A DNA stretch of 64,000 bases, taken from the NCBI GenBank assembly GCA_027475525.1, contig JAMWFC010000115.1, positions 62,001 to 126,000 of the forward strand, read 5' to 3'. How positions within the stretch are numbered: position 1 is the stretch's first letter; each line of letters opens with the position of its first letter. Positions 4,792-45,691 of the stretch are shown here, in pieces. Below the pieces are notes generated by a model. It was given only the letters and a program-made list of their open reading frames with translations. It was not told the DNA's origin and searched no databases. Source of the stretch: Macrolepiota albuminosa. Taxonomy: Eukaryota > Basidiomycota > Agaricomycetes > Agaricales > Agaricaceae. A program made the position numbers and the translations under genes.

Positions 4792-4796
4792 ACATT

Positions 4797-6156: not shown

Positions 6157-6160
6157 GGTT

Positions 6161-21586: not shown

Positions 21587-22656
21587 TGATGACGCCAACT
21601 GTGGTTGGGTGCGCTGGACGTATACGCAGTACAACGCCGTCTCCAGCGCTTGGCGTACGTGGTTGTGAGGAGTCCTGACAGGGTCCCGGTGTGCTCGAGT
21701 GGAAGTAGTAAAACGATGCGCTAGATTATAGCGCTTCGGGGGCTACCTGGCAGACGGTAAGCGTCGTAGTTTAGGCAAGAATATTAGAGAAAAGTCAAAT
21801 AGCGCAACGTATTGTGCCCGTAGGTGGCACCGTAAACAATGAAGACGAAATAGACGAAGCTAGCGCCCGACTTAGTGACGACGTCGAAGGAAGCTAGCGC
21901 GAGTTGAACGCTAAGTGTAACTGTGTGCTCGAGGGGTTACGATTCGTTGTTATATACATGAAAAGTAGCTATTTTATATACAGTGCGCTACCGTGTTTGC
22001 CAAGATACAAGTCCATCTGCGGCGCTACCTCCTAGCGCCTCTCCTCGTGGTTTACTCTAACGGCGACCTGTCAACGGCGACCTTGTGCACATGGCTGATG
22101 GCGACCAACGGCGTTATGACCCACGGCGACCTGCGGTGACTCTATATTGACTTAGAGTTGTACGAGTCTGCTCACTTTTCTATAACTCCGATTGGCCAGG
22201 CTGTTCCGGGGTATGGTCGGAAAATCCTCGACAGACGCCGTGAGCGCTAATGTCAGCGCTACTCATTGTATTAGTTCCTGTCAGGTCCAGATGTCGGATT
22301 TAAGTATATCCAGTGCCGCCGTCATTGATCCCTTTAGACTTCTGATTGAAGTGCCTCGTCCAATGGCAGCGCCTGCTGCTGGCTCCTTCTGGAAGTGATC
22401 GGGGTTTAGTTATAGTCCTCTCCCGCCGTCGTGTTAGCGCTATATGTTATGAGCCTCCTTCGTCCTTGGGCTAGGTGAAAGGAGAGTGCTGAAGGCTTGG
22501 TAGCTAGGGGTTAGGATAAATTTCTAAATCCTGTAGTAGTTTGCCAGAGCTAGAGCTGCTCTATACTCCCAACTGGTCGCCAGAGTCCTGCGTACGTCAA
22601 GTGTCGGTTGGCCTATAATGTCCCTTGATGCGCTCAGTCCGAGTAGAAGCCTATCA
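21587..22656 (-). repeat. 3' LTR of Gypsy A
   Basis: 1070 bp, nearly identical to 35105-36174. Plus-strand start TGATGACGCCAACTG, end GAAGCCTATCA. Confidence 0.92.
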
Positions 22657-22668
22657 TCTCCCCCCAAC
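22657..22668 (-). promoter_or_regulatory. Polypurine tract of Gypsy A
   Basis: Minus-strand GTTGGGGGGAGA directly abuts the 3' LTR. The following stretch (CAACTGAAAAATTGACTGTCC on the plus strand) is also shared with element B at 21541-21561 apart from one base. Confidence 0.85.
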
Positions 22669-22744
22669 TGAAAAATTGACTGTCCTCAGTCAAACGCCGT
22701 CATTAATTTGACTGCGCTACGGTCCGTAGAATGCCGCCGGCGCC

Positions 22745-22752
22745 TTATAAAA
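22745..22752 (+). promoter_or_regulatory. TATA-like box of the antisense gene in Gypsy A
   Basis: TTATAAAA about 50 bases upstream of the ATG at 22802, inside the element between PPT and gene. Suggests the cargo gene has its own promoter opposite to the element transcript. Element B has TATTAAAA at 36282-36289, closer to its ATG. Confidence 0.4.
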
Positions 22753-22801
22753 TCGTTTTTAGCCCTTCACCTTCTCGTGTTTTCCTTCCCATCTTTCCAA
22801 C

Positions 22802-25383
22802 ATGTCCACTCCTTTCGATGCCTCTGCTCTTCGCAATTTCCTGGCTAAAGCCTCTTATTTATTCGATCGCGCTAAGTCTGTCGGTCCCGCCGATGCGCCA
22901 CAAACCGTCCCTGGCATTATGCAACTCTATCGGCGCTGGCTCGTGGTCCGCGGCTCTGACAGTTCCTGGGTGCGGGGCGTCGAGGTTCGTGAATGGTGCA
23001 TGGCTCGGTACCGTGAATATGAGGGTGCCGATTGGTTGCTACCGTTCGCGGACTTGTTCGTAAGTTTTTAGGTTTGATTTTAGGTTCGTGGCGCTAAGGT
23101 TCAGCGCCCATACTAGGCTCCTTCTCTATCCGACGAGATCGACGCCCTGCTGGCTAGTACCGAGGTTGGCGAGGTGAGTTCCTTTTCTTCCTCACATTTT
23201 CCGTGTTAACCCTGAGTAGTCGGTTGCTACGTCGCCCACCGTTGCAAGTCTTCCTAGTGCCCCGTCGGCCTCTACCGTTCCTTCCGTTCCGGCCGCTCCT
23301 GCTGCTCCTGTTTCCGTTCTGCCTCCTCCCGTTCTTGGTAGTCCTTTTCGTGGCGATGCTTCTCCCGCTCGCCCTGCACCCATCGTCGCTTCTCCCACTC
23401 GTACTGCGCCTCCTCACTCGGCCATCAAACGGATTGCCGTTACCGCCAGTGAGCCCCGGCCCGGACCTACCCATACTATTTCTCGCCTTCCCCCCCGTAA
23501 CTTCGCCGTCGTTATTAATCGCGCGCCCCCTACTCTCGCTAGTCCTCCCAAACGTACCGTGCGTCCTTGTCTTCTTGCCTCTAGTTCTTCTACTCACTCT
23601 GCTTCTTAGGTCAATCTCCCTGCTCGTGTGGCCCCTCTGTATGTCGTAAGTGTTTCCTTTTAAGATCGCTTGTCTCTAGCGCCTGATCGAGCCCTCCTTA
23701 GGCGCCCAACCAAACTATGTTTACCGACGCGGAGCTTCGTGATTTGCTGCGCCTTCGTCGCGATACTACCGTCATTGATACCGGCCTCCCGGCTGGTGTC
23801 CAGGTGCTCGGCGCTAAGAAGAAGGTTACGGTGGCACCCGTGGAGCGCCGCGCCTTTAGGGCGAAGATTGGTGCGGTAAGTGCTTGTTTGTCCCTGAAAG
23901 GTTGATGACGTCGCTAACTTCTTTCCCAGTGCGATAAATGCTGGTCTGAAAACGATCCTGAGGGTTGCTGGTTTCCTACCGCCTCTCTTCCCTGCTACCG
24001 TTGCGATGCGTTGAAACGGGGCTGTGCCTTCAATGGGATTCGTACTCGCGAACGTGGTAGGGACGCTATCATGCAGCGCAATTACGAGCGCGCAGTCTTA
24101 GTTCGTAACGCCCGGGCCTTTGTGCTGCAGCAACGCGATTTGGCCGCTACTCGTCAGCCCACTGTGATTAGCGCTGCAAGTCTAGCGCTTCCCATCACCC
24201 AAGATGGTACTACCGTGACTGCCCCCTTCGCCCGTTCTCCCCGTCGTCCCGTCCCTTCGAAGCGTAAGCCTATTGTCGCCTCTCCTAGCAAGAGTCCCGG
24301 TAAGCGCCGGGAGCTAGCGCCTGCTACTCCTGTCGTCTTGTCTTCTACCGAGTCGTCTACTGATGAAGGCGAGGATACCGAGAGGGACGCCGAGGGCGAG
24401 GATGATGATGAGGCTGGGCCTGTAGTCGACACCGATGCGCTGTTGGCGGTACGCGCTCTTCTGCTTCGCATTACTCCCCCTTTCGCCGCTAACCCTTATC
24501 AGAGTGGCCCCAGTGGTAACCGGTGCGTAGTCTTCGGGTTTTCTTCGCCAGGTGGTACTAACCTCTTCGTCGCTAGTTCCCCTACTCCCTCGCTTCCGGT
24601 TGTCGTAAATATCCCTCCCGCCGAAGATGTCGTAATGTCTGTTGCCGGCGCTACCCCGGCTCCCGAGCCTGTCGCGGCTAGCGCCTCCCCCGTCGCCCTT
24701 CCTATTACACCATCTCTTACCCCTCCTCGTAGCCTCTCTTCTTTCCCCAGTACTCGCGAGTCCTCAACTGCGCCTGAGTCCGAAGGGACCCTAGTAGCTC
24801 AGGGCGAGCGCCGCCGCCGCTGGAGGTACTTGCCTTCCTACGGCATCCGCCTTTCTTCCGCTAGGGCCATGTCCCCCGGCGATGAGCGCCATGAATGGAC
24901 CCCCCGTGCTCCCGTAACCGTTCGAGTAAGTCTGCATTTCCTAGTTGGATCGTCTCTCCGCTGACCTCCATTAAGTTCGATCCTTTTTGGACTCCTCCCC
25001 CAGTAAGTCTGCATTTCCTAGTTGGATCGTCTCTCCGCTGACCTCCATTAAGTTCGATCCTTTTTGGACTCCTCCCCCGCCATGCGCGTTTCCGGCGACG
25101 CCTATCCTTGGCTTGGGGATGAGTTCTCTTATCCTGTCACTCCCCTTCGTCCTGCCGCCGATCTTCATCAACAACTTCGCCAGGTCGAGGACGCGACCGA
25201 CGTCGTCGGTAGCGAACTCGCCCTCCTCCGTCCTCGTGTCTCCACCTTAGCGCGCCGTGAGCTCCTCCTGCTTGAGCTCCATGACGACATCACTGATGCG
25301 CTTGAGTGGCAAGCGAGTAACGCCATTCAAGACGGGGACTTGCTTCCATTGGGTGATCCCGCTCCCTCCGCGTCTGATGCGTA
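22802..25383 (+). CDS. Antisense spliced cargo gene of Gypsy A: Cys-cluster protein, unknown function
   Basis: Exons 22802-23059, 23117-23173, 23220-23558, 23610-23645, 23702-23875 and 23930 onwards; all these junctions are phase 0 with GT..AG introns. Exon 5 has the same length (174 nt) as its partner in element B, and exons 1, 2 and 4 also align with theirs. The last part starts with CDKCWSENDPEGC, followed by CYRCDALKRGC, a CX2CX8C plus CX2CX6C cluster likely to bind metal. Then come a basic region, an acidic stretch (DEGEDTERDAEGEDDDE) and a conserved tail (GDAYPWLGDEF, later LEWQASNAI). Near 24925-25080 a 77-bp duplication and a one-base slip in a C run disturb the frame; an extra 50-nt intron starting GTAAGT is possible there. 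It lies opposite to gag-pol. Function unknown; nucleic-acid binding is inferred from the Cys cluster. Confidence 0.75.
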
Positions 25384-25910
25384 GTCGCCGGCCCGTAGCG
25401 CTTCGAACTTTTGTGGACTTTGAAAATTTTGATACGTAGTTTGTGATAGCCGTACTAAAATAAACGCTCCCCTCCCCTTGTTTCGAAATCGTCAGTTTGT
25501 AAGTAATCAAAATACAAAGTAAGAAAAAGGGGAAACGCTCAGTAAATCATCATGGCGTAAAAACCCCTATTACCAGCGCGACCCAATAGCCAATATCGCG
25601 CCAGCCTAGGAAGAAATAGGTATCGTCTGTAGAAAAATAAGTCGATTCATGCAAGAAGTTTTAATGTATAGGAAATAGAGTGCCACTGATCGCTTGTGGT
25701 TATTCGGTGATGGTGGGTATAAGCGCTAGATCTCGAAGGTTAATACCCTCTTTGTGCGACCTAAAATGGACTCCAGCGCATCCTATTGGTTCGTGTCTGC
25801 GTCAGGGTCCAAGCCCCTTGAGAAGTGCCCTCCCACGCTGTCGCTAGTTGAAACACCGTCCGAGTCCTATAAATTGCCCATGTCCCGACAGCATCTCATC
25901 AGTCTTCGCG
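25384..25910. other. Spacer in Gypsy A with a block conserved in B
   Basis: No gene. The block at about 25527-25567 (AAACGCTCAGTAAATCATCA) is nearly identical to 38928-38965 in element B (AAATGCTCAGTAAATCATCA), in both cases just after the antisense gene. It may hold transcript-end signals for the convergent genes. Confidence 0.55.
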
Positions 25911-26540
25911 ATGGAAAGCCCAACCGGCATCGTGTGGACTGCCCGTTGTGATCGTGCTCATATCGTAATGGATCCCCCCACTTTCCTGGAACGCGCTACC
26001 TCGTTCTTCCACCACTACCCCGAGGTCGGCGTGCCCGGGCTGACCGACGGAGTCGTTGAGTTAGGTCGTCGCTGCCAGCTACTTCGTGTGGCCTGTGAGA
26101 TCTGGAATGATGACCTGCCGTTGACCCGTTTCGGTATGGAGAAAAACTGGAGTCGGATTTTTCAGGTGCGCTATTGCCTTTTTCGCCCTCCTTCTCTTCT
26201 GATAGTCGCCCAATAAAGCAAATCGCGACCAAGGAAACGAAGGAGCGTCTTGAGTTGCTACTGGAGGAGAGTCACTACCTGGTCCGTTACCTTATTACCT
26301 TGTTTTCTTCCTTCTAACGCATTGCCCCGCTAGGCGCCCCGCTCGTCTACTGGTGGCCGGCTTTTTCGCGGTCCAACTGAAGGCTGGCGGCCTTCCAGGC
26401 CTCTCCTTTTGCCCGGTCCTTGATACTCGTCCGTCTCCCATGTCGTTTATGTAAGTCGGCTTCTTCTTTTTCGTGGCGCCTCCTTTTGCCCGGTCCTTGA
26501 TACTCGTCCGTCTCCCATGTCGTTTATGTAAGTCGGCTTC
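25911..26540 (+). CDS. Second antisense gene of Gypsy A (small spliced ORF), unknown
   Basis: ATG at 25911 opens an 85-codon exon (MESPTGIVWTARCDRAH.. to NWSRIFQ) ending at a GTGCGC donor at 26166. Further coding pieces follow: IATKETKERLELLLEESHY near 26220-26276, and a frame reading LLVAGFFAVQLKAGGLPGLSF at about 26350-26410. Exon borders after the first are uncertain, and a 77-bp duplication (26403/26480) disturbs the end. The first exon resembles the gene at 26740 (FLER.. then RRCQLLRVACEIW against LDRLERFL.. then RRYRILLAASAEW), so the two look like tandem paralogues. Element B lacks this region. Function unknown. Confidence 0.5.
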
Positions 26541-26739
26541 TTCTTTTTCGTGGCGCCCCGGGCTGACAGATTTTGGCTAGTTGATTTCTTTTGTCGTAGT
26601 TATATGAAATGTATCATTGTCTTCTCCCCCCCCCTCATGATTGTTTGCGCATGTAAGAGTTCCCAAGTATCCGCGACCCTGCAATCAGCTGGAGGTATTT
26701 TATGGATTCTGGCGCAGTTAACCCGGTTAGTATCATATC

Positions 26740-27636
26740 ATGCCAGAACCTTCCCTCCTTCTTGATGACCCCGTACTCGTTCACCGGCCTCTCATCCTAG
26801 ATCGCCTCGAGCGCTTCCTCGCGTTAATGCCTGACGGCGGCTTTCCGCAGGAGAATAGTAACATATTGACCCTTGTGCGCCGATACCGGATCCTTCTAGC
26901 GGCCTCCGCCGAATGGGAGATAGACACAGAAATAGTAACATATTGACCCTTGTGCGCCGATACCGGATCCTTCTAGCGGCCTCCGCCGAATGGGAGATAG
27001 ACACAGACCGGCCCTAGTCACCGTAAACCCTTTATTAGCGCATGTTTTGGGTAATACTTATGCGCGCCGTAGGAGCAGACCATTGCTGGTACCGCGTTGA
27101 GCCTTCATAGTCTTCTCCGCGAGACCGGGGGTTTGGTTAGTACCTATACCCCTTTTTCGCCTGGCTTTGGTTAGCTAACTCCCTGCCCTTTTCTAGAGCC
27201 TTTCCTGGCTCCCTCTTCCGGTTCTTGTCAACCCTACCGCTAGTAGAGCCGTGCTCGACCGCGTGATCGTTCCTTTCACAGCTTTAGAGCGTCGCTTGGA
27301 CGAGGCCGGGTGGTACTTGTCCCCTACTCGTCCTGCCGCTCCCCCGTTCCTTTCACAGCTTTAGAGCGTCGCTTGGACGAGGCCGGGTGGTACTTGTCCC
27401 CTACTCGTCCTGCCGCTCCCCCGGGTCTTCCGCGCTCCACCTACAATCGCCCTTCCCATGCCTCCTCCTCGCGCTCCCGTACCTCCTTCTCCAGTCGCTC
27501 CCGTACCTCCTCCTCCAGTCGCTCCTCCGCGCCGCCTAACGCTGCCATTCGTCCCCCTTCCGGTGCTCCTCCCGCCTATAGGCGACACAAGGAGCGAGTC
27601 AAGGGTCCTCGTCGGCGGTCGTCATCGTTGTCTTAA
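26740..27636 (+). CDS. Third antisense gene of Gypsy A, paralogue of the second, with Ser/Arg-rich tail
   Basis: ATG at 26740 begins MPEPSLLLDDPVLVHRPLIL, then a helical segment to AASAEWEIDT (broken by the 77-bp duplication at 26854). A last exon from about 27197 reads ..SRAVLDRVIVPFTALERRLDEAGWYLSP and ends in a low-complexity tail of SRSRTS and SSRSS repeats, then RRHKERVKGPRRRSSSLS and stop at 27636. Middle exons are not resolved. Duplications at 27268 and 27574 interrupt the last exon. Basic and Ser/Arg-rich composition suggests nucleic-acid contact, but no domain is recognised. Confidence 0.48.
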
Positions 27637-27846
27637 GCTTTTGTAGTCGAGCCTATAGGCGACACAAGGAGCGAGTCAAGGGTCCTCGTCGGCGGTCGTC
27701 ATCGTTGTCTTAAGCTTTTGTAGTCGAGTATAGTAATGCCGCATGTATTAGTATCGCCACGTTATGCACCATTTCATGATTACTAGCGCATGCTTTAAGT
27801 CCGTAGCAGGGGCGCTAACCGCTGGCGCCTCGTTTTCCGTGGTCTT

Positions 27847-30800
27847 TTATTGTTCCTCTTCGTCATCAGGAGTGATCTCGTCATCGTCCACCAACTCAGT
27901 CTCTTCAAGCTCTCGCAGTTTGGCCGTGTCAATGTCTAGCGCCGGCAACGGTAGTGGAATGCGTCCACCAACTCAGTCTCTTCAAGCTCTCGCAGTTTGG
28001 CCGTGTCAATGTCTAGCGCCGGCAACTAGTGGAATGTGTTCACGCGCTAAGTAGGGAATGAGTCGAAACGCCGCTACCGGTCGATGCAAAACCGAGCCGT
28101 CCAGCTCGCAGAGTACGTAGGCTCCTCCCCTATTGCGGGAAACGACTATGAGGGGCCCTAGGTATCGAGGTCGCATCTTTTTGTTATGGGTACGTAGGCT
28201 CCTCCCCTATTGCGGGAAACGACTATGAGGGGCCCTAGGTATCGAGGTCGCATCTTTTTGTTATGGGTACTTCGATTTTCGAGTTGCGCATTAGCACTAA
28301 GGCGCCAGCTGTAAAATTGTAGTCCCGATAGTAGCGCTATGCTCGCTTTCAAATCGTAGTGCGGCTTGTCGTCTAGCTTGAAATACCACCTCGTGTAGGC
28401 GCTCTAGATCCTCCATGCGTCGTTGTAAGTCAATAGCGCGCCTAGCAATAAGGTCGGTAGAGGACAGGATTGAGTTAGGTGGTGGTTGTAGGTATGTTGC
28501 CTCCACAACGTCTGCTGGAAGCAGGGGATGGGTGCCAGTCGCCGCGTAGTAGGGAGAGCAGCCCATCCTCTTCCGTACGGTAACTCGTTCAGACCAAAAG
28601 ACCGAATAAGTCGCTTCGCTCCAGCGACTTTCGTCGCCGTCTACCGCCTTAAATAGCGCCTGTCGTACGTCAAAATGTGGCCTTTCCACTATACCGTTAG
28701 CGCGTTTATTGTATCCTGAGATCCGAATATGCTGTATGTTGTATTTCTTAGCGAGGTAGGTAAGCGCCTTAACTATTGGCGCTCCGTTGTCTGTAACAAT
28801 CTCGTGAAGGGCTCCCCATCTGCAAATAACATCTTCGAAGAGCCACTTAGCTATAGCGTCGGTATTTTCCCGCTGGAGCATACGGAACTCCGGCCAATGT
28901 ACCAAAGAACACCTTCCCTGGATAATGTACTTGTAGCGTCCCGACTTGGGCATGTGCATAGTGTCGATATATATTGTACCAAAGAACACCTTCCCTGGAT
29001 AATGTACTTGTAGCGTCCCGACTTGGGCATGTGCATAGTGTCGATATATATTTTCCGAACAAGGGTGCTGGAGTCGCTACGGTTGGGGGAATAAGGACTT
29101 GGCGCGTCTGTTGGATTTGGCAAGATGACAAGTACGAATATACCATGCGATATCGGCGCTAACTTGAGGCCACCAAAAGCGTTCCAATAAATTCGCCCGC
29201 GTCGCGTAGAGTCCTCGATGTCCCAAGTCATCATGCATAGCGCGCAAAATCCTGACGCGGCCCTCTGGCTTGATTACTAATTTGTGCGCGCCAGACCTAT
29301 TTCGTCGCCAAAGCCGATTTTCAACCATAAAGAAAGTCGTTGCATATCGAATGAAGGTGGCGTATTCCGTGTCCGTAAGGTCTGATGGTCGTCGCAAATC
29401 CTGTAACCATTTCCTAACCTGATCAACTCGTTGGTCTTCTGACTTAGCCTTGGCGCTACGAGGTACCGCCGAATATGGAAGGTTGCGACTATCTTCCCGT
29501 AAGGGTCTTGGTTCCTCGACTATCTTTAGATCATTATGCGGCTTAGCGACGTTATAGATACTGGCCGTGTAAAAAGTCGATGGAGCCTGATACGGATTAG
29601 GTTGGTACGGAATGATAGGGTGTAGCCAGGTCGAGACAGGTCGGTCTTCGCGAAGGGCCGTAATAGGCAATTGAATAATATGTATGAAACCGTGCAGCCG
29701 GTCAATCCAGTCGTCAAATACGTCATTATCGCTTTCGTCTAGCGCTTCGTCCTCCGGTTGCCTAGGTCGCCTAGATAGTCCATCAGGTCCATGAAACGCA
29801 CTTTTGACATGCACGAGCTCGAAGTGGAACATTAGTATCGCTACCACCCAGCGATTCATGCTAGCCGAAGGTTGAATGTCTGGATTCTGAAGCATTCCTT
29901 TGATGTAGCGTGCGTCCACTTCGACAATCAGGTTTCGAACCCCAATAAGATACATGCGCAGCGCCTGGAACGCTCGAAACAGTCCATATAATTCCAGTTT
30001 GGGCTGACTGTAGCGCGATTCTCTGTCGTTAAGGGTAATCGATCCGAAGCGATTGTAGCGTCTGATTTTTCGATTCGCGCTATCACATTGACATAAAAAG
30101 AAGCCAACCGCGATGTAAGAGGTGTCGACGGCAAGTATAACTGGGTCGGATGTAGTATAATCGATGGGTACCAATGGCTTCGCTTCCTGCAGTGCCTTTA
30201 CTAAGTCTTTTTGGGCGTTAATTTGGTCGGGTCCGAATTCGAAGGGGACCCCTGAACGAGTTACTGCAGTGCCTTTACTAAGTCTTTTTGGGCGTTAATT
30301 TGGTCGGGTCCGAATTCGAAGGGGACCCCTGAACGAGTTAGCGATTTAGCGCGTGCGCTCGATGTGAAAAATGGTGTATGAACATGCGCAGCACGCCTAC
30401 CGTGCCTAGAAACGCGCGAACTTCCGAGAGGTTATGGCAGACTCCCCACTTCTCTAGAAGCGCTAATCGGCTCTCCTCAGGGATCCTGCCTTCTGGCGTG
30501 CAAACGTGCCCTAAAATTTTAAATTGTGGCGCGCAAAGAACCAACTTGTGTCCTGAGAACGTTCCACCACAATATTTCATGCGCTGAAGCACCCGGTTGA
30601 CCAATTGGAAGAAGTCCCATAGCGCCATGCGGATATTAGGATTTTCCGGGTGCACTTCGGGCTTGCCATCTACAAGGCGCCAATCTTTTGGGCCCATAGC
30701 GCCATGCGGATATTAGGATTTTCCGGGTGCACTTCGGGCTTGCCATCTACAAGGCGCCAATCTTTTGGGCCTTAACGCCAACATCGTCGATAAAACTAAG

Positions 30801-32171
30801 CACATGGTGGGGTATTTCGGGTTGTAGAATAAACGTAATGTCGTCGTGGAATATGGGTACCGAATTCGTCCACCCCATGGGAAGTGTAACCAGTCGTAGC
30901 GCTCCGAATGGCGTTTGAAATGTCGTTAAGTCGCGAGAGGAAGGATGAATCAAGCGCTCGTCATAGCCAACGTACAGATCCAGGGTAGCGCCACATATTC
31001 TTCCCGCGAACGATTCAGCGACGTGATCGGGGAAGGGCGGTACCCCTGAATGACGAATCGTGACTTTGTTCAGCGGCTCCAGACTGTGAACTATACGTAG
31101 CTTGCCATTTTTCTTTAGTACACAAAACCATCGCGACCGGTATGCCGAATTGGAAGGTTCGTAAACTCCCGCCGCTATTTTGGAACGAATAATTTGGCAA
31201 ACTTCAGCTTCAATACCCGGCGGTATTGGTCGGTTATGCTCGGTCCAGCCGCTATTTTGGAACGAATAATTTGGCAAACTTCAGCTTCAATACCCGGCGG
31301 TATTGGTCGGTTATGCTCGGTCCAAGGTACATGAGGTATTGTGGTATAACCACTGGTGGAAAGAAGTCAGTTCTCAGTTTACCGCGTTCGGAATCCTCCC
31401 AAGCAAATGCTTTGTTTGTTTTCGCATAATGTCGGTCAATACATCTAGTTCCGCCGTCGATAGAAAGCCTGTATCGTGGGCGCTAAGGAATAGCGCCCTT
31501 CGTTCTTCCGTAAATATACATCTAGTTCCGCCGTCGATAGAAAGCCTGTATCGTGGGCGCTAAGGAATAGCGCCCTTCGTTCTTCCGTAAATCGTCCGGT
31601 AGGCTCGAAGGGTGGCGGGTTCGGATTAAGCTCGGGAAGGGTCGCTAACGGGTCTCCAATGATTTTTCTCTCGATGCGAAATTCTTCGGTGGCGGGTTCG
31701 GATTAAGCTCGGGAAGGGTCGCTAACGGGTCTCCAATGATTTTTCTCTCGATGCGAAATTCTTCGGTACGCCGCTCGCTACCGGTTTCGTTTTAAGCGCT
31801 ACTGGCTTGTATTTCTTTTTAACCTGAACCCCTTTGCGCTTAGGGGTACTGTTGTTAGCAAACGTATTATAAATGGAACTCTGGTTTCTAGCGAAACCGG
31901 ATATCAAAGGTTCTTTAGAATCAGGGGAAGAAACGAAATAAGTGTCTGTCGAAAGATTTTCAGTAATATCGGATGCAGTGAGGTATAAGTAGGATAAAGC
32001 TTCGCTAGTAAGCGACGTAGAAGTGTTCAAGATTTCAGGGGCTAAAGGGGTATATGATATAAAGGTTACTTGCCCAGTCCGATGATTATAGTCCAAAATA
32101 AGCGCTTCATCTCCATGATCCTCATCACTCATCTCCTCGATGGCGCCGGAAAACACTCGCAAGGGTCGTCG
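27847..32171 (-). CDS. pol: Pol of Gypsy A: reverse transcriptase, RNase H, integrase
   Basis: Read leftwards from the frame opening at 32171. After an N-terminal linker comes RT (RSRWFCVLKKNGKLRIVHSL, LPMGWTNSVPIFHDD, then FIDDVG, the catalytic box in FIDD form, near 30780). RNase H follows (VILAVDTSYIAVGFFL, KLELYGLF, EVDARYIKGML). Integrase has an N-terminal zinc segment (HDDLGHRGLY.. to TCHL) and core residues IDTMHMP, VTDNGAP and ERPHFDVR, giving D, D and E. The tail is acidic, ending near 27847 (TAA). Eight 77-bp duplications fragment the frame. After collapsing them, single-base slips relative to copy B remain near 29053, 29122, 30343 and 30769. The pol frame is -1 relative to gag-protease, as in copy B. 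Confidence 0.88.
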
Positions 32172-34716: not shown

Positions 34717-35083
34717 ACCGATAGGTGTATTTGTCGAGGTAGGAAGGGTGGTAGTGCTCGTGTTACTTAGCGTCGATGTCGTAGGTACCGGCTCAGTTAG
34801 CTCCGAGTCGCTAGGTTCTGGCGATAATAGCCTAGATAACTCTTCTAGAGGCGTAAGCGGCGTATGGTTTTCGCCTGCTAAGTACTCAAATGGTCGGGAA
34901 AAAGGGAAAAAGCTTTCGGCTAAGCTGTCTGGGGCGGCCTCAAGCTCCTGATCCAAAGTCTGTCTCGGTAGCGCGCCTGGTAAGTGTGGTGAGTCGGTGG
35001 TACTTGGTTCAAACGCGCTCTCCAACAGGAGGCGGCGCTGTCGCTGGGCTCGAGTTTCCGGCGGAATTCTGTCTCAGAAGAAC

Positions 35084-35101
35084 CCCTCGCGGTGGGCTCC
35101 A
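35084..35101 (-). promoter_or_regulatory. Primer-binding site of Gypsy A
   Basis: Minus-strand TGGAGCCCACCGCGAGGG lies three bases inside the 5' LTR. It starts with TGG, complementary to the CCA end of a tRNA. The tRNA species was not identified. Element B has the same site with one base changed. Confidence 0.78.
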
Positions 35102-35104
35102 AAA

Positions 35105-36174
35105 TGATGACGCCAACTGTGGTTGGGTGCGCTGGACGTATACGCAGTACAACGCCGTCTCCAGCGCTTGGCGTACGTGGTTGTGAGGAGTCCTGACAGG
35201 GTCCCGGTGTGCTCGAGTGGAAGTAGTAAAACGATGCGCTAGATTATAGCGCTTCGGGGGCTACCTGGCAGACGGTAAGCGTCGTAGTTTAGGCAAGAAT
35301 ATTAGAGAAAAGTCGAATAGCGCAACGTATTGTGCCCGTAGGTGGCACCGTAAACAATGAAGACGAAATAGACGAAGCTAGCGCCCGACTTAGTGACGAC
35401 GTCGAAGGAAGCTAGCGCGAGTTGAACGCTAAGTGTAACTGTGTGCTCGAGGGGTTACGATTCGTTGTTATATACATGAAAAGTAGCTATTTTATATACA
35501 GTGCGCTACCGTGTTTGCCAAGATACAAGTCCATCTGCGGCGCTACCTCCTAGCGCCTCTCCTCGTGGTTTACTCTAACGGCGACCTGTCAACGGCGACC
35601 TTGTGCACATGGCTGACGGCGACCAACGGCGTTATGACCCACGGCGACCTGCGGTGACTCTATATTGACTTAGAGTTGTACGAGTCTGCTCACTTTTCTA
35701 TAACTCCGATTGGCCAGGCTGTTCCGGGGTATGGTCGGAAAATCCTCGACAGACGCCGTGAGCGCTAATGTCAGCGCTACTCATTGTATTAGTTCCTGTC
35801 AGGTCCAGATGTCGGATTTAAGTATATCCAGTGCCGCCGTCATTGATCCCTTTAGACTTCTGATTGAAGTGCCTCGTCCAATGGCAGCGCCTGCTGCTGG
35901 CTCCTTCTGGAAGTGATCGGGGTTTAGTTATAGTCCTCTCCCGCCGTCGTGTTAGCGCTATATGTTATGAGCCTCCTTCGTCCTTGGGCTAGGTGAAAGG
36001 AGAGTGCTGAAGGCTTGGTAGCTAGGGGTTAGGATAAATTTCTAAATCCTGTAGTAGTTTGCCAGAGCTAGAGCTGCTCTATACTCCCAACTGGTCGCCA
36101 GAGTCCTGCGTACGTCAAGTGTCGGTTGGCCTATAATGTCCCTTGATGCGCTCAGTCCGAGTAGAAGCCTATCA
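35105..36174 (-). repeat. 5' LTR of Gypsy A
   Basis: 1070 bp. Differs from the 3' LTR at two sites I can see (GTCGAA against GTCAAA; GACGGC against GATGGC). Confidence 0.92.
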
Positions 36175-36294
36175 CCGTTACTGCTTTTGTGACAAGTGGT
36201 CCGTGCATTCTTGAGATTTTGTTTATAGTCCTGGCGCATGAGTGTGGACTTCGTTTCTCCTCCCATCTTTTATCTGGCGCTCTATTAAAATTAA

Positions 36295-38701
36295 ATGTCT
36301 TTCCGCATTCCAACTCTGCCCCCCGTACCGTCTCGTGAGGCTCAAGACGCTGCCTCTGCCTATATCGAAAAGGTGAATAATTTCCTTAAGCAGATCGATG
36401 GCATTGGCGCAGATGCGCCTGTAAATTTGGTCGTTGCCGTGATCAAGTTATACGAGCGATGGCTGGAGGTGCGCGTTCTTGGCGTGGGATGGGATCGTGA
36501 GATAGAGGTTTGGGAGTGGTGCCGGTCGCGGTACTTGGATCATCGTGGCGCAGAGTGGCTAGCGCCCTTTGCTCATTTTGTAAGTACCTCCAGTTCTTGC
36601 CATGTCGCTAGCTGATCGAGTTGCCAGGCGCCTCCTCCCATCCCAACGATTGAGGACGAGTTGGAGGATATTCTGTCCGGTGCCTTGCCGATGAAGGTAA
36701 GCGCGCCTGCGGCAGAGTGAGTATTCCTAACCCATTCCTTTGACCTTAGCTTTGGTCTGACTTGTTGCCTCATAGTAAACAGGAGGTGTTGGCGCCGTTA
36801 GCGCGTATGCAGGTGGAGGAGGTTTCTCAAGACGCCCACGAGATTACCAGGGCGCTAGAGGAGCGAGAGAGGGTGGCGGCGTTGGCAGCAGAGATGGAGG
36901 AAGTTGCTGCGGGGAAGGCGCCTGCCGCCAAGAGGCAATCGGTAACAGAGGGATCCAGCCAGGGTGGTCGTGCCGGCAGCACTTTGAGCCCAGTGTTGCC
37001 GGCTAGCAAGTCGGGCTTGTCGAGGAAGCCGGCAGGTGCTTCCAAACGTAAGGTAAGTGCTAATTTCACTTGCTGTTGCCGACAGTCGCTAACGACGTTT
37101 GTAGAGTCGCAAGGCGGCTCCTCAATATGTGGTAAGTGGTCTTTGGAAAAATCTAGTCTCCTTATTTACCGTGATCCTTCTAGGCGCCAACACAGTCCAG
37201 CTTTGATGACAAGGAGCTTAAAGGACTGCTGTTGCTGCGTCGCGAGGAGGCCGTTCTTGACAAGGGGCAAGAGGCCGGGGTCGTCATGGAGGAGATGAAG
37301 GGAAAGAAGACAGTTTCCCTGGTGACCTGGCAAGCGTTTAAGGAGGCGCGGGAAGCGGTAAGTGACTTTTCTATCTTTTAAGCTCGCGCTGACTTGTAGC
37401 GCTAGTGCGACAAGTGCTGGGCCGACAACGACCCAGAAGGCTGTTGGTTCCCGACTGGGGCCCAGCCGTGCTATCGCTGTGGTGCCCTCAAGCGCGCTTG
37501 CACCATCGACGGGGCTAAAAGTTGCAAGCGTGGCGGCGCGCCAGACGCACTTGTCGAGAAGACATTTTTGCGCGCTGTTTTGGTGAGGAGGGCCAGGGAG
37601 TTTGTGGAGGGCCAGAAGAGGAAGGTTGCCGCAGGGGGAATGGCAGCCATTGGACGTGCCTCCTTGGTGTTGCCGACATGCCAAGGAGATGGGTCAGAAA
37701 CAGTCGGCAATCGAGGCGCTGGAGAGCGCCAAGGGACTTCGGTTCCAGAAAAACGACAAGCCCCTTCCCCAAGCAAGGGGAAGGGCAAAGCAAAGCGCCC
37801 TCATGTGGTCTCGTCGTTGCCTTCCCCCTCGCCAGCGCCAAAGGACACCGAGATGGAGGACCTGGAGAAGGCGTTGGCGGCTAGTTGCCTCCCGCCCCGT
37901 GACACAGAGGCTGGCCCCAGCGGTCTCTTGTCGCCCATTCATTTGGCGGCAAGGTCTCTTGGCAAGGAGCAGGAGGTAGGGGAGCGGGCAGTGGTTGGCG
38001 ACTTAGCGCCGCCAGAGGAGCGGGAAGAAGCCCCCATCGACGTCGAGATGGGGGATGAGGAGAAGGCAGAGGGAACGGTAGCGGGAGGAGATGAAGACGC
38101 CGAAGGTGAAGAGGAAACCTTGGCGACGCAACGGGACGGTGGTGAGGAGGAGACGTCGGCAAGGGAGGTAGTGGCAGAAGAAGGGGAGGGAGCGGCAAAA
38201 GTTGCCAGGGAGGAGCCTGAGTGGCACTGGCTGCCTCCCTACAGTAGCGTTGCCCCTTGGGAGGTTTCAGACCCCGAAGATGTTGCTGGCCTGGAGCCTA
38301 GGCGCCCCGTGGTCGCCAGGGTCAATCCCTCGTGGACCCCCCAGCCGCAGCCAATGGTCATAGGCGACGCTTTCAACTGGCTGGGACAAGACCTCGTGTA
38401 CCCGGTGGTGGCACTTAACCCGCGGGAGATGCTGGAGAGGTTTTTGAGGAGGGCGGCAACGATGGAGGCATCAATGGGGCGAGAATGGGAGTGAGTCCGA
38501 GGGCAGCTAATGGCGCTAAGGTTGCACTATTCCAACCTTGGTCGTAGCCTTAGCGTTCTTCGAGACTACCAGGCGGATTGCCAAGCCGCCATGGATTGGC
38601 AGACCGCCAACAACATCTTGCCTGGCGACCTTCTCCCTCTTCGCAAGTCCTCATTGCCAGTTACTGACGACTCCCTCTCTATGGATGATGTTAGCGAATA
38701 A
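36295..38701 (+). CDS. Antisense spliced cargo gene of Gypsy B: Cys-cluster protein, homologue of the gene at 22802; one internal TGA
   Basis: Six exons, all phase 0: 36295-36579, 36628-36696, 36783-37052, 37105-37131, 37184-37357, 37406-38701, total 2121 nt (706 codons plus stop). N-terminus: VIKLYERWLEVR..EVWEWCRSRYLDHRGAEWLAPF, aligned with the copy A protein (LYRRWLVVR..EVREWCMARY). Exon 3 is Ala/Glu-rich, probably coiled coil. Exon 6 opens with CDKCWADNDPEGC and CYRCGALKRAC (residues 276 on), then a basic segment with KGKGKAKR, a long acidic region and a conserved tail (GDAFNWLGQDLVYPV, later AAMDWQTANNI). Codon 638 is TGA (38492-38494) within an otherwise continuous frame. The gene is convergent with pol, which ends at 39126. 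Role unknown; conservation of exon pattern between two element copies argues it is carried by the family. Confidence 0.8.
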
Positions 38702-38924: not shown

Positions 38925-38965
38925 AAAAAGGGAAATGCTCAGTAAATCATCATAGCAAAAAACCC
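38925..38965. other. Block conserved between Gypsy A and B downstream of the antisense gene
   Basis: GGAAAAAGGGAAATGCTCAG and the following bases match 25523-25562 in copy A almost base for base, although the flanking spacers have diverged. Possible shared 3'-end signal. Confidence 0.45.
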
Positions 38966-39125
38966 TTGGCGAGAGTTGCGCAGTGCGCTAAGCGTTGGCG
39001 ACACGCTAGCGCTGCGATTTGACTATGTAAGAAAATGTCTGTTGGATATAGTACAGTAAGTATCAGCAAGAAAGATAAGTAAGGTAAGTAATAGAAAGAA
39101 AGAGCTTATCAATATATAGTCTTTT

Positions 39126-42100
39126 CTAATCATTTTCTTCTTCTTCAACTAGAGTCGGCAAGTCATCATCGTCCAATAATTCGGTTTCTTCAAGTTCTCT
39201 TAACTTGGCGGTGTCGATATCTAGCGCTTCCAACGGCAAGTCAATCTGTTCTCTGGCGAGATACGGCAATAGGCAAAAAGCGGCAACGTGTCGATATCTA
39301 GCGCTTCCAACGGCAAGTCAATCTGTTCTCTGGCGAGATACGGCAATAGGCAAAAAGCGGCAACCGGTCGATGTAGTACTGAACCATCTAATTCACAGAG
39401 CACGTAAGCGCCTCCATGGTTACGAGAGATAACTACCAAAGGTTCCAAATAGCGCGGGTGCATTTTCTTGTTGTATGAGGTTTCGATTTTGGAGTTGCGC
39501 ATAAGCACTAGCGCTCCTCTCGGGAAGTTGTAATCCTTGATAGTAGCGCTATGCTTGGTTTCGAATCGTAGGGCTGCTTGGCGACGTGCGCTAAAGACTA
39601 TCTCGTGGAGTCGGTCTAAATCTTCTTTCCTTCGCTGGAGATCAATAGCTCGTCTGGCGATAAGGTCGGTAGTCGCTAAGATGCTGTTGGGTGCTGGCTG
39701 AAGATAGGTCGCTTCTATAATGTCGGCAGGGAGTAACGGATGGGTGCCAGTAGCCGCGTAATAGGGAGAACAACCCATGCGCTTACAAATGGTAACTCTT
39801 TCCAACCAAAATACTGAATAGGTTGCTTCACTCCAACGAGACTCGTCGCCATTGACTGCCTTGAAAAGCGCTTGCCGAACGTTGAAGTGTGGTCTCTCTA
39901 CCAGGCCATTGGCGTGTTTGTTGTAGCCAGATACTTGAATGTGATGGATATTGTATTTCTTGGCGAGATAGGTTAGCGCTTTGATAATTGGCGCACCGTT
40001 ATCTGTGACGATTTCTCTTAGCGCTCCCCAATGGCAAATGACGTCTTCAAATAGCCACTTGGCGACTGCCTCGGTATTTTCTTTCTGAAGCATTCGAAAT
40101 TCAGGCCAGTGGATTAGCGAGCAACGACCTTGAATAATGTACTTGTAGCAACCAGATTTGGGCATATGCATGGTGTCGACGTAGATTTTGCTGAAGAGAG
40201 GAGCTGGCGTTGCAACGGTTGGCGGGATGAGCACTTGGCGTGTTTGTTGAATTTGGCAGAGGTGGCAAGTCCTGATGGAGCTGGCGTTGCAACGGTTGGC
40301 GGGATGAGCACTTGGCGTGTTTGTTGAATTTGGCAGAGGTGGCAAGTCCTGATGTACCAGGCGATGTCGGCGCTAGCGTGTGGCCACCAGAATCGTTCTA
40401 ACAGAGAGGCTCAGGTAGCGTACAGACCTCTATGTCCTAGTTCGTCATGCATGGCGCGCAGGACTCGTAAGCGACTTTCTGGCTTGATGATCAGCTTGTG
40501 AGCGCCATCTCGATTTCGTCGCCAAAGTCGGTTGTCGGTAAAGAAGAAGTGGGTGGCATATCGGATAAAGGTCGTGTACTGTTCGTCGGTAAGGTCTGGG
40601 GGTTGCTTAAGGTCTCGTATCCATTGTTCAACTATTAACAAGTGACTGTCTTCTGCCTTTGCCTTGGTGGATTGGGGAACAGCGTCGTAGGTCAGGTTTC
40701 TGCTATCTTCTCTTAGCGGTTGGGGTTCTTGTACGACTTTTACGGGAGGCAAATTTTGACTGAAAATGCTTGCCGTGTAGAATGTGAGGGGTGCTCTAAA
40801 GATCTCGGGGCGGTAAGGGATAATGGGATGTAGAAATATGCTGGTAGGCTGTTGCCGTCGTAGTAGGGGGATTGGCTGTTGTATGAGGTGCACGAAACCA
40901 TGTAAGCGGTCGATCCAGTCCTCGAAATCGCTATCAGCCTGTGGGTCCACTGCCGGGTCGCCAGGCTGCCGTGGTCGCCTAGAAAGTCCATCTGGTCCGT
41001 GGAAAGAGCTCTTGACGTGTACCAACTCAAAGTGAAACATGAGGATAGCGACTACCCATCGGTTCATACTAGCGGATGGCTGGATGTCGGGATTCTGCAG
41101 CATGCCTTTGATGTACCTAGCGTCGACTTCAACAATAAGGTTCCGTACGCCAATCAAATACATCTTTAGCGACCGGAAGGCTTTGAAGAGTCCATAGAGC
41201 TCCAGCTTAGGCTGACTGTAGCGAGACTCTCTGTCGTTTAGCGTAATAGACCCAAAGCGGTTGTAACGTCGCTGTTTCCGATTGTCGCTAAGGCACTGGC
41301 ACAGAAAGTAACCAACGGCAATGTACGAGGTATCCACCGCCAGGATAACAGGGTCGGCAGAAGTATAATCGATGGGGACTAGGGGCTTGGCGTCTTGTAG
41401 GGCTTTTACTAAGTCGCGTTGGGCAGTGACCTGGTCTGGCCCAAATTCGAAGGGCTCGTTAGCGCGGGTGAGTCGGTTAAGGGCGTGTGCGCGATGGGCA
41501 AAGTTTTTGACGAATATCCTGAGAACGCCAACGGTGCCAAGAAAGGCGCGAACTTCAGATAAGTCGCGGCAAGGACCCCATCGCTCCAGGAGTGCTAAGC
41601 GAGACTCGTCGGGAACATGACCGTCGGGAGTGCAGATATGACCAAGTATTTTGAACCTTGGCGCGCAAAGGAGAAGTTTGTGGCCGCTAAAGGTTCCACC
41701 GCTATACTTCATACGTTGAAGAACTCGGTTGAGCAACTCGAAAAATTCCCATAGCACTAAGCAAATGTTGGAGTTGTCGGGATGGGTTGCCGGCAAGCCG
41801 TTTACGAGTCGCCACTCTTTGGGACCTTTGACGCCAACGTCATCAATGAAGCTGAGGACATTATGTGGTATCTCGGGTTGGAGGATGAAGGTGATGTTGT
41901 CATGGAATATAGGGACTGAGTTTGTCCAGCCCATCGGTAAAGTAACTAGGCGCAAGGCGCCATATGGGGTTTGGAAAGTAGTGAGGTCGTGGGAAGAAGG
42001 GTGTATTAAGCGTTCATCATAGCCAACGTAGAGATCAAGGGTGGCGCCACAAATGCGCCCGGCAAAGGACTTGGCAACGTGGTCAGGAAAAGGTGGTACG

Positions 42101-43074
42101 CCAGAGTGTTGTATTGTAACTCTATTCAGTGGCTCGAGACTATGAACTATGCGTAGATTGCCGTTCTTTTTGAGGACACAAAACCATCGGGAGCGGTAAG
42201 AACTGTTTGAGGGCTCGTAGACGCCAGCCTTTATCTTGGTCCTAATAATTTGGCAGACCTCGGCTTCGATCCCAGGCGGTAACGGTCGGTTGTGCTCAGT
42301 CCACGGCACGTGAGGGATGGTCAGGATTACGACAGGCGGGAAGAAGTCTGTGCGGAGGCTGCCGCGTTCCGAGTCCTCCCAAGCAAAAGCTTTGTCTTGC
42401 TTAGCGACAAGATTGGTAAGGACGTTCAACTCATCTTTGGTCAAAAATCCTGTGTCGTGCTCCTTGGTGAACTGCTGCTGGCGTTCTGTGGTAAAACGTC
42501 CTGTGGGCTGAAAGGGTGGCGAATTCGGTGATAGGGTCGGCATGTCGGCAAGAGGGTCGCCAATGATCTGGTGCTCGATTCTAAACGTCTCAGGAGAGTG
42601 CGTAGCGACGGGTTTTGTTTTAAGCGCAACTGGCTTATATTTCTTTTTGACTTGAACCCCTTTCCTTTTGGGAGCGTTAGCTTGGTTATATACAGAGGTG
42701 GAAAGGGGAACTGTAGCCTGAGGGGCGGCAAGTCCAAGAACGGCAGGAGACGAGGCTCCGGGAAGAGTAGTGAGGTAAGTATCGGTAGACGCAATATTTT
42801 GAAAGGATTCGGAAGCGGTAAGGTACAAGTAGGCAAGAGAGGAGTCGGTAATGTTTTGATTTTTCTGGGAAGGCTCTGCGTCGGTAGTGGGTAAAGTAGT
42901 TAAAACATCTTCGTCAAGAAAGGTAGTAGACATAACATTTACAAGACCAGTAGAATGGTCATATTCCAGCGTTAGCGCTACATCTCCGTGATCGTCGCCA
43001 ATCACCTCCTCGATGGTCTGTGAAAACACCGGTGGGGAGGCTCGTTGGCGTGCTGGTCGGTAAACTCCGGGGGC
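39126..43074 (-). pseudogene. pol: Pol of Gypsy B: reverse transcriptase, RNase H, integrase
   Basis: A long frame of 872 codons (43029 to 40411) covers RT and RNase H: SRWFCVLKKNGNLRIVHSL, TLPMGWTNSVPIFHDN, FIDDVGVKG; then AVDTSYIAVGYFLCQC and EVDARYIKGML. It reaches the integrase zinc region (HDELGHRGLYAT), where a TGA at 40411-40413 interrupts (copy A has Arg). Integrase continues with VDTMHMPKSG, VTDNGAP and ERPHFNVR, and an acidic tail ending at 39126 (TAG). Duplications at 39211 and 40201 add frame breaks. The pol frame starts after a TAA at 43075-43077 and overlaps the gag-protease frame to 43002, offset -1. Less fragmented than copy A, but dead through the nonsense codon. Confidence 0.88.
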
Positions 43075-45311
43075 TTAGCGCGGGTGCCTTTTTGTTGTCC
43101 TCTAGGGAACGTTGGCACTGTTCGTCAGATTCCGGAATTGGGGTCGCTAATTGTTAAGGTTGTTTCGTCGTCGGTAACTGTCTTGACGACTGATCACGCC
43201 AAGACGTTGAAGGGTCTGCCGAGAAGTAAATCGTATGCCGGGAAGCGTAAAATGTGTATCTGAAGATAAAACGTAATGTCGCCAAGGGTGCACGGCACAT
43301 TCTTGGCGAGGCCTAGGGATCTGTCTATCGTGCCGTTAGCGCTCTGCATGTTTAGTATCACAGTTGGGTCATAAATGAGGCCTAAATCATTAGCGACTTT
43401 GGCTGCCATAGAAATGATCTGAGACCCGCTATCAACAATTGCCTCTACCTCGTGCTTGTTGTCGACTGTTAGCGCGACGGAGCGAATAGCGTGTGATTCT
43501 TGGGCGACGGTAAGGATTGCTGGGTCTTCTCCATGGTCTACTGACCTAAGATAGGTCTCCACTGGGTCCACAGAGGTGGCGTTAGCGATGGTGTCAGCAG
43601 GAGAGTCTTCAGTGTCTAAAGAGTCGACGGTAACAGAAAAACCAGGGAGCGCGTCGTCGAGATCCTCGACCTCGGCAACGGTTGTCGCCAAGGGTTGTTG
43701 GGGAGTGACTGCCGTCTTGACTTGGTTGTGAACGTCGGGAGCAATACTACAAAGTTCTTCAACTGACAAGGTGACATTGGTTTTCATGATGCGGCTAAAG
43801 ACGTGATTTGATTTTTCTATGTTGAATATTGGCGCGGTAGGTCAGTAGCCACCCTCAGGATGTTTCTCAGGAGCGGCAAAGTTTCGTTGTGCTGGTGCGT
43901 GATAACGGTCAGGAATCCCTGAGTAGGGATGGAGAGGCGGCAAAGGCGGTTTGGGAGCAGTAGCGGACGACGATGGTTCTGGAGTAGTAGCAGGGGTCGT
44001 AGCAGGCGGTGTGGCAGGAGCAGGTGTCGGTAACTTGCTAGCGGGAGGGATTGGCTTATATCCTTTGAGAGGTTGTTTGGGCTGCTTAACTTCAACCCCA
44101 TCAAAAACCTGGTTCTTTAGCGAATCCAGCTCCTGTTGGAGCTTGGCGATACGTTCTTCCCGTGAGAAAGTAGGATGGTCGCCAACGCTGTCGAAGTGTA
44201 AGACCTCATGAATCATTTGCTGTTGGGTCGCCTGTTCGGGGTCGGGGTTGGTGTTGCCGGAAAGCGTGCCGGTAACGATTTGTCCTGGGTTGCGCCTATG
44301 CCATTCATCAACTCGCTCCTGGAAGGACTTCTTGTCCGGGTAGTTGGGGATGGTGGCGCCAGTGGTGAGAACTATCTTGCCGTCGATAGCCCGTCAAATC
44401 CTTCCTTGCCGAATGTAGTTTTCTAGGGTAGCGCAGCGTCCTCTAGTCATAGTATGGCCAATTTCCCCACAGAAGTGGCAAGGGCCATTAGCAGGTACAT
44501 TAGCGGGTCAGTTAGCGAGATTTGTGGTAATCATTGTTTCAATACGAGTCATGGCGGAAGTGACAGCAGCAGTAACGGCAGCATTGAAATCCTCCTTCTT
44601 AACGAAGTCGGCAGGAGGGGGCGGGATGGGAATGATACCATTAGTTCGCTCAGGTGGTGGGCTCGTCCTAGCGCGCTGCAGTCCAACGCCAGTGTCCGTT
44701 CCCTTGAGAACCCATTTACCGGCTTCAAAGACGTCGGCAACGTTATAGGGCTTGTCTGGGTGATGGGCCTGGTGAACTATCTCTAGGCGACGAGCAATAC
44801 GAGTCCAAAGCGAAGTCGGGATGCCTTGTTGGAATAGGCGATGTTCCTCGTTAATGTATAGCTTGCCGTTCTGTACTAACCACCTAGCGATCTTTTGGAA
44901 TTCGCAGTAATACGTGGAGAATGCGCCAAGAGACGATGTGCCACTGTCGAATGATTCCTGTACTAGTTTCTGGAGCTCGTTTACCGAGTATCGGGTAGCC
45001 TCTTCTGCGCCAGGGTACAACTGGATCACTGCCGTCTTCCAGTCCTCATACGAAGCGCCTTGGGCTGGAACGGGTGGGGCGGCAGGGACAAAGGCGGCAA
45101 ACTCGGTCAAACCTGTCCACGTCTCTGCCGTGTCATATGATATGTATCTTGCCGCGTACTCCTTCATCTGCGTGTGGTCAATAATGTTACAATCTCTGAA
45201 TAAATACTCCAACTCCTTGAAATACTGGGAGAGCTCCCGTGGCTTGGACTCGTCCCATTTTGGTGCCGAGAAGTGGTTGCATGGCGGCATGCGCTGGACT
45301 TGTTGTTCCAT
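43002..45311 (-). pseudogene. gag: Gag-protease of Gypsy B, five TGA stops
   Basis: ATG at 45311 (MEQQVQRMPP). Capsid: PKWDESKPRELSQYFKELEYL, later FSTYYCEFQKIARWLV and IPTSLWTRIARRLE. Zinc knuckle: CHFCGEIGHTMTRGRC at about 44440-44490. Protease: IVDSGSQII near 43430 and LLLGRPFNVLA. Frame is constant from gag to protease and is interrupted only by TGA codons at 44508, 44394, 43842, 43194 and 43125 (lowest base given). Each aligns with Arg in copy A. The frame ends at TGA 43002-43004, overlapping pol. Confidence 0.87.
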
Positions 45312-45670
45312 AGCGACTGTGATGGCGAGTTCAGTTAGCGGTAGTGGGGAAGGAGTTCTAGAGATTGGCAACGGGGTAAGAGAAATGAGTTGTGAAAGAG
45401 GCGTTAGCGGAGTAATGGGGGTGATTGGTTGCGGTACGGTAAAGGGCAACGCTAAGGGGTCGTCAGCGCTATAATCGAGGGAATGCGGGAAGAGATCAGG
45501 AAATGCGTCTACAGTGGCGTTCTGTAGTTCCTGTGCAAGAGAGAGACCCGGTAAGGCACCAGGTGGTTGTGGAGTTGATGGGTGGGAAGGAGCTATGCCT
45601 TCTGCCGACTGGTCTAGCAGGCGGCGCCTACGCTGGAGACAGGTTTCTGGTGGAATTCTGCCCTAGAGAT

Positions 45671-45688
45671 CCCTCGTGGTGGGCTCCA
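45671..45688 (-). promoter_or_regulatory. Primer-binding site of Gypsy B
   Basis: Minus-strand TGGAGCCCACCACGAGGG, three bases inside the 5' LTR. It differs from copy A by one G/A change at a CpG. Confidence 0.78.
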
Positions 45689-45691
45689 ATT

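Follow-up and report, generated by a model that had tools for sequence, protein, structure and literature searches.

Two Ty3/Gypsy-type long terminal repeat (LTR) retrotransposons, termed A and B, lie in the stretch of Macrolepiota albuminosa DNA analyzed here (64,000 nucleotides; contig JAMWFC010000115.1, positions 62,001 to 126,000; hereafter the window), which is part of a genome of 100 Mb in 129 contigs. Both contain a multi-exon gene, gene 1, that is located on the plus strand between pol and the 3′ LTR and runs opposite to gag-pol, as had been noticed in a reading of the sequence alone. Gene 1 is almost certainly a protein-coding accessory gene of the element. An A copy (L018) and a copy of a third subfamily, A2 (L040), compared over 711 codons at 88% identity, show a ratio of nonsynonymous to synonymous substitution (dN/dS) of 0.091, and their differences at codon positions 1, 2, and 3 number 58, 43, and 255. 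Because of this low ratio and the excess at third positions, the frames are not a product of chance. The selection is purifying, not neutral. With no intronless copy among the matches listed, the gene emerges as the sequence-only reading had proposed—a conserved part of the element, spliced as judged by comparison.

Antisense accessory open reading frames (ORFs) have been described in LTR retrotransposons for a long time, without any function being attached to them. In the present case, one genome offers at least 263 loci in at least three subfamilies, with frames mostly intact in the part scored and selection that can be measured. The splice signature makes expression of gene 1 directly testable, and the system shows how introns can be kept within a retroelement.

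Exon structure, coding evidence and splicing of gene 1

Gene 1 is predicted, by comparison of copies, to have eight exons in A and A2 and six in B. The parts in the window are as follows.

22746..22752 (+): TATAAAA box, gene 1 of A, 56–58 bp upstream of the ATG
22802..23059 (+): gene 1 of A, exon 1 (86 residues, N-terminal helical domain)
23117..23173 (+): gene 1 of A, exon 2
23220..23558 (+): gene 1 of A, exon 3
23610..23645 (+): gene 1 of A, exon 4
23702..23875 (+): gene 1 of A, exon 5 (174 nucleotides)
23930..24522 (+): gene 1 of A, exon 6, opening with the six-Cys cluster CDKCW..DPEGCWFP..CYRC..LKRGC
24577..24925 (+): gene 1 of A, exon 7, after the phase-2 intron 24523-24576, by comparison with A2
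25053..25386 (+): gene 1 of A, exon 8; the window copy is broken here by the duplication 24925-25078
36295..36579 (+): gene 1 of B, exon 1
36628..36696 (+): gene 1 of B, exon 2
36750..37052 (+): gene 1 of B, exon 3, start revised by a Termitomyces segment match
37105..37131 (+): gene 1 of B, exon 4
37184..37357 (+): gene 1 of B, exon 5 (174 nucleotides)
37406..38494 (+): gene 1 of B, exon 6, with the six-Cys cluster; a premature stop ends the window copy

Both window copies are imperfect. Gene 1 of A is broken at 24925-25078 by an exact 77-bp tandem duplication, and that of B is ended early by a stop codon at 38492-38494. At these two sites, other copies of A and B are open, and the frame of B exon 6 then continues to about 425–431 residues. 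No 77-bp duplication was found in L018 and L040 (L039 also belongs to A2). The gene model of the sequence-only reading was revised: A has eight exons, and the most likely start of exon 3 of B is 36750, as the Termitomyces protein P0004 matches the segment LWSDLLPHSK. The acceptors of B exon 3 appear displaced because this exon was first set too late. Of the features said to be shared by A and B, the phase-0 joins do not extend to every join, the A intron 24523-24576 being of phase 2, and exon 5 is equal in length at 174 nucleotides but not identical, with 26 of 58 residues and 53% of nucleotides in common.

The joined product is about 710 residues long, L018 and L040 each giving 712. As had been claimed, the products of A and B are homologous, with 36% identity overall and 59% over the first 70 codons of the Cys-cluster exon. 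Their plan comprises a helical N-terminal domain, coiled coils, and the six-Cys cluster, which is spaced C-X2-C-X8-C-X8-C-X2-C-X6-C and whose six Cys are invariant in a 13-sequence alignment. In the AlphaFold model of P0004, the N-terminal helical domain is predicted with confidence at residues about 10–100, and long coiled coils are placed at about 128–196 and 541–608. This model has no fold match at E ≤ 0.001 in PDB or BFVD, where a remote match is possible, and the products of gene 1 (A and B) as well as of genes 2 and 3 described below have no Pfam match up to E 1. The Zn2Cys6 (GAL4-type) pattern consists of six Cys in the arrangement C-X2-C ... C-X2-C-X6-C, and the cluster described here has the same number and spacing, whereas its first loop is X8 instead of X6 and acidic instead of basic. 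Assignment to PF00172 was rejected, there being no Pfam match up to E 1. The cluster probably binds zinc.

Between L018 and L040, pN is 0.062 and pS is 0.459. With the first gene models, the median dN/dS is 0.144 within B (11 copies, 55 pairs) and 0.236 within A (21 copies, 210 pairs). The coding parts are free of internal stops in 17 of 21 A copies and 8 of 11 B copies, and exon lengths in B are divisible by three in 64 of 66 exon-copies. Across the genome, 150 A-type loci scored and 113 B-type loci (the best-scoring gene matches of 1178 candidates) make up the at least 263 loci, and herein 141 of the 150 A-type matches, each over 142 residues, and 76 of the 113 B-type loci are stop-free. In A2, 20 loci have equal score, identity, and open-frame length over the 142-residue stretch, which suggests a recent amplification of A2. 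Three decayed gene 1 copies (L032, L034, and L036) contain stops and R-to-C/H/Q/W changes as seen by eye, and these changes fit the expectation for CpG-to-TpG decay.

All seven gene 1 introns are bounded by GT-AG in both L018 and L040, at the same positions and with lengths of 50–58 nucleotides, and their sequences have drifted to 61–91% identity. In A, reading through six of the seven gives a stop or a frame shift (by eye), and the sixth, with 54 nucleotides, is open. Donor and acceptor sites of B are kept with exceptions, such as an ATAAGT donor in L029 and a GCAAGT donor in L031. No intronless copy across the exon 5–6 join of A occurs among the matches listed (150 loci scored of 1253 candidates), a list in which such a copy would outscore every row. 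Likewise, there is none among the 13 B matches listed at E ≤ 1e-45: nine cross the exon 5–6 join with 45–48 extra nucleotides, which is the intron length, and four begin inside the query and read stops that are taken as intron sequence. In the Termitomyces gene models of P0004 and P0007, the segments of exon 1, exon 2, the Cys cluster, and the C terminus are joined one after another as they are here. From these comparisons we infer that gene 1 is spliced in vivo. A TATAAAA box stands at the distance given above in all 21 A and A2 copies with a located ATG (22 examined), and we infer transcription from an own promoter just inside the 3′ LTR.

Gene 1 as part of the elements, and genes 2 and 3

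The expectation that gene 1 lies inside the elements was borne out in 18 of 20 A copies fetched, where an LTR match lies to one side of it and an integrase-end match to the other, with the order unchanged among copies. An LTR match is present on the gene side in 19 of the 20 and an integrase-end match on the other side in 19 of the 20. L021 is without the gene-side LTR and exons 1–2, and L023 has no integrase-end match within the stretch fetched. Further irregularities are an insertion between exons 1 and 2 in L022, whose LTR match comprises only 72 bp at the stretch edge, the loss of most of the gene 2/3 region in L017, and partial matches to the LTR (L014 and L015) or the integrase end (L018).

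Viewed from the integrase, gene 1 is located on the opposite strand at the 3′ side in 77 of 98 A/A2-type integrase matches among those listed, with a median distance of 3252 bp (range 2730–8128) and one same-strand case. This count used 98 of 129 rows and omitted 29 B-like rows (87–88% identity) and two fragments. For B, the integrase is found 635–943 bp downstream on the opposite strand for 31 of the 113 exon-6 matches listed, with three other placements; the integrase list herein holds the best-scoring 107 of 2862 first-look candidates. Some of the unpaired integrase copies have a diverged gene 1 piece on the opposite strand 1.3–1.5 kb away (C114:5163370, C51:118614, and C85:154163). Two other gene 1 pieces of this genome, C81:1145936-1146352 and C110:4632519-4632734, with 71% identity to B and 68% to A, indicate further subfamilies.

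The assignment of A and B to Ty3/Gypsy follows from paired LTRs with TG..CA ends, a primer-binding site (PBS), a polypurine tract (PPT), and the order gag–protease–reverse transcriptase (RT)–RNase H–integrase, where PBS and PPT were recognized by eye. On the minus strand, the LTR of A reads TGATAGG...GTCATCA; its 3′ copy is preceded by a PPT-like purine run and its 5′ copy is followed by a PBS-like stretch TGG.... In both elements gag-pol occupies the minus strand. Above the Pfam cut-off are the RNase H of B and the protease of A, and the RT of A scored below it; the integrase has no convincing Pfam match and, like gag, was assigned by position and sequence. Element A spans 21587-36174, is inserted between the 3′ LTR and gene 1 of B, and has the repeat CCGT on both sides. 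Its LTRs are 99.8% identical over 1070 bp, and those of B are older, with 91–99% identity in pieces.

21587..22656 (−): A 3′ LTR, 99.8% identity to 35105-36174, ends read
35105..36174 (−): A 5′ LTR, LTR pair comparison, ends read
28297..35073 (−): A gag-pol region, frames cut by 77-bp duplications
28297-29076 (−): A integrase, homology to B and position
29077-30294 (−): A RNase H, homology to B and position
30747-31280 (−): A RT, Pfam, below cut-off
32335-33066 (−): A protease, Pfam, above cut-off
33775-35073 (−): A gag, homology to B and position
20520..21532 (−): B 3′ LTR, LTR comparison, ends read
45692..46662 (−): B 5′ LTR, truncated, LTR comparison, ends read
39221..45662 (−): B gag-pol region, homology, position, and Pfam
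39221-40372 (−): B integrase, homology to A and position
40411-43074 (−): B RT/RNase H, RNase H by Pfam
43194-43841 (−): B protease, homology to A and position
44508-45662 (−): B gag, homology to A and position

Two more spliced genes, which the sequence-only reading had missed, are located on the plus strand of A and A2 between gene 1 and pol.

25868..25874 (+): TATAAAT box, gene 2 of A, found in 18 of 18 A/A2 copies with a located start context (22 examined)
25911..26165 (+): gene 2 of A, exon 1
26219..26281 (+): gene 2 of A, exon 2
26334..26423 (+): gene 2 of A, exon 3 with stop; a 77-bp duplication starts nearby at 26403
26740..27016 (+): gene 3 of A, exon 1, holding the 77-bp duplication artefact 26854-27007
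27079..27135 (+): gene 3 of A, exon 2
27197..27636 (+): gene 3 of A, exon 3, with a Pro-rich, basic C terminus and a 77-bp duplication

Gene 2 has three exons and encodes 135 and 132 residues, with a dN/dS of 0.175 for A versus A2 and codon-position differences of 25/17/56; its short leader before the ATG is identical in L018 and L040. Gene 3, also with three exons, encodes 199 and 201 residues, with a dN/dS of 0.239 and codon-position differences of 59/44/105. By these figures, genes 2 and 3 are under purifying selection. The model of gene 3 is the least secure, given a weak first donor (GTCACC/GTCACG) and an uncertain promoter.

Relatives, proposed role and rival explanations

Relatives of the gene 1 product comprise at least 67 distinct proteins (31 + 54 matches), all named Termitomyces "hypothetical protein" (T32_za158, J132, T112, Mn162, and T159_Od127). 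Each search scored about 8000 of the best word-sharing candidates, and a wider occurrence is possible. The antisense genes described here suggest that a multi-copy class of these Termitomyces proteins is encoded by retrotransposons.

A viral counterpart is HBZ, which is located in the 3′ region of human T-cell leukemia virus type 1 (HTLV-1) and gives a spliced transcript. Like gene 1, it is an antisense accessory gene, and its protein is nuclear according to the part of PMC11963269 consulted. As to differences, gene 1 does not overlap gag-pol, and there is no sign of relation; no bZIP domain was found in the gene products described here (Pfam, up to E 1).

In plant Gypsy elements, antisense ORFs of the aORF-3R type lie between pol and the 3′ LTR, examples being gene23 of maize Grande, rice RIRE2, and Silene Retand with its TRP28 domain (PMC7264820 and PMC11963269, as far as consulted, also for the following). 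They resemble gene 1 in position, in antisense orientation, in presence in most copies, and in having no clear function along with a proposed nuclear regulatory role; for Grande, an own promoter is described upstream of gene23, and both the gene23 and HBZ proteins show nuclear localization. Gene 1 shares the conservation and the presence in most copies (77 of 98 integrase copies listed; dN/dS 0.09). Differences are the six to eight predicted exons, the three such genes in A and A2, and the basidiomycete-type host, and the TRP28 domain (PF04195) was not found in the products of genes 1–3 (Pfam, up to E 1). A look through the main text of the two papers, as consulted, gave no occurrence of "intron". 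In fungi, Boty of Botrytis cinerea is an LTR element with an additional antisense gene, brtn (Zhao et al. 2011), compared here only through its description in citing papers (PMC7264820 and PMC8365987, in part). It is alike in being an antisense extra gene of a fungal LTR element and differs in its ascomycete host. Antisense genes at this position are already known in plants and in Boty, as far as these sources describe them, so antisense orientation in a fungal element is no novelty by itself, and the earlier view that a conserved spliced gene of this kind would be unusual there is partly wrong. As judged from the same sources, the present system differs in its multiple exons, in how many such genes an element carries, in the type of protein encoded, and in the group to which the host belongs.

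The explanation that we consider reasonably probable as a whole is that a Ty3/Gypsy lineage carries, between pol and the 3′ LTR and on the opposite strand, an accessory module that serves as a nuclear self-regulator. A promoter belonging to gene 1 and situated just inside the 3′ LTR, with the TATA box in A and A2, would drive its transcription, and the host would splice the transcript. The resulting protein of about 710 residues would be laid out as N-terminal helical domain, coiled coil, six-Cys cluster, charged linker, and C-terminal coiled coil. It may act in the nucleus and in trans on expression or integration of the element, at the LTR or on chromatin, in the manner of HBZ or of the antisense accessory ORFs of plants. 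With antisense expression, production of this protein would not depend on the 5′ LTR of the element. The introns would persist because the genomic RNA that is reverse-transcribed carries them reversed and, thus, not splice-competent. The nuclear self-regulatory role of the protein is the likeliest of those considered, as a tentative proposal for which the chances stand slightly below even. The same caution applies to a logic resembling that of complex retroviruses, in which up to three separately promoted, host-spliced antisense genes would include one nuclear Cys-cluster trans-regulator; we put this forward as possible and not as the expected outcome.

Several observations weigh against this explanation or parts of it. 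Among the matches listed, 21 of 98 A-type integrase copies have no gene 1 match among the 150, and 71 of the 150 A-type gene matches have no integrase partner, with 79 having one. Gene 1 (0.091) is less constrained than the integrase, with a dN/dS of 0.032 in one pair. Exon indels relative to the window reference are often not multiples of three (22 against 9 in A and 39 against 55 in B), these figures being pairwise gap counts with the old exon limits. The Cys cluster has low confidence in AlphaFold and no Pfam family match, and the annotated Termitomyces protein P0008 is without its second half. Where A has its TATA box, B shows no clear one, and B lacks genes 2 and 3; in the window, about 500 bp from the end of its gene 1 frame to the integrase frame leave no room for them.

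A structural or packaging accessory—gag-like, or an integrase cofactor or tether—in which coiled coils and helical domain assemble and the Cys cluster binds nucleic acid, is rather unlikely. The confident N-terminal helical bundle and the C-terminal coiled coil in the P0004 model speak for it, and retention across the family fits a replication role, whereas an antisense promoter uncouples expression from gag-pol, which would be odd for a structural protein, and PDB and BFVD gave no match at E ≤ 0.001 (a remote one being possible). Quite improbable is a unit that works mainly as RNA, with the protein being minor, by forming double-stranded RNA with the genomic transcript and leading to small-RNA silencing or self-limitation. 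Overlap with the genomic RNA is unavoidable for an antisense unit, an RNA role has been raised for plant antisense ORFs (PMC7264820, in the part consulted), and transposon-derived antisense RNAs in powdery mildew are the subject of a further paper (PMC10648671). However, the dN/dS of 0.09 to 0.24 and the third-position excess in all three genes argue for selection at the protein level, which pairing does not need, and introns would reduce pairing of the mature RNA.

That gene 1 belongs to a captured host gene family merely carried along, or to host genes beside insertion sites, is very unlikely. Its introns point to an ancestry free of any passage through spliced RNA of that strand, as in genomic capture, and the 71 gene matches without a listed integrase partner, which may include copies outside elements, would fit as well. 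Against host genes stand the near-constant spacing to the integrase in most of the 77 copies and the LTR match adjoining the gene in 19 of 20 copies, and no host-locus homologue was identified in searches that were not exhaustive; against mere carriage stands the selection-backed retention in the A, A2, and B lineages. An artefact, with frames and introns misread in a compositionally biased repeat, is scarcely credible: the assembly does contain many exact 77-bp tandem duplications, but L018 and L040, where none were found, give the same exon structure and open frames, and the Termitomyces gene models agree on segment order.

77-bp duplications and other features of the window

The window contains 39 exact 77-bp tandem duplications in 64 kb (e.g., 24925-25078, 26854-27007, and 46253-46406). 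They are found at differing places across copies of one element and on other contigs too. Very probably, they are an assembly artefact (k-mer overlap of 77), and many reading frames of this assembly are interrupted by it.

Another repeated gene for a Cys-rich protein (CSLCSHRGEPCEF...CVSCRAQHEQCS) is located on the minus strand at 15979-18022, with 122 matches from 116 scored candidates in the genome, many of them with stops. Remains of a Copia-type element occupy 7678-9377 on the plus strand (Pfam rve, SH3_retrovirus, and RVT_2), and remains of a Helitron-type replication protein are found at 59121-60836 on the same strand (Pfam Helitron_like_N with DUF6570).

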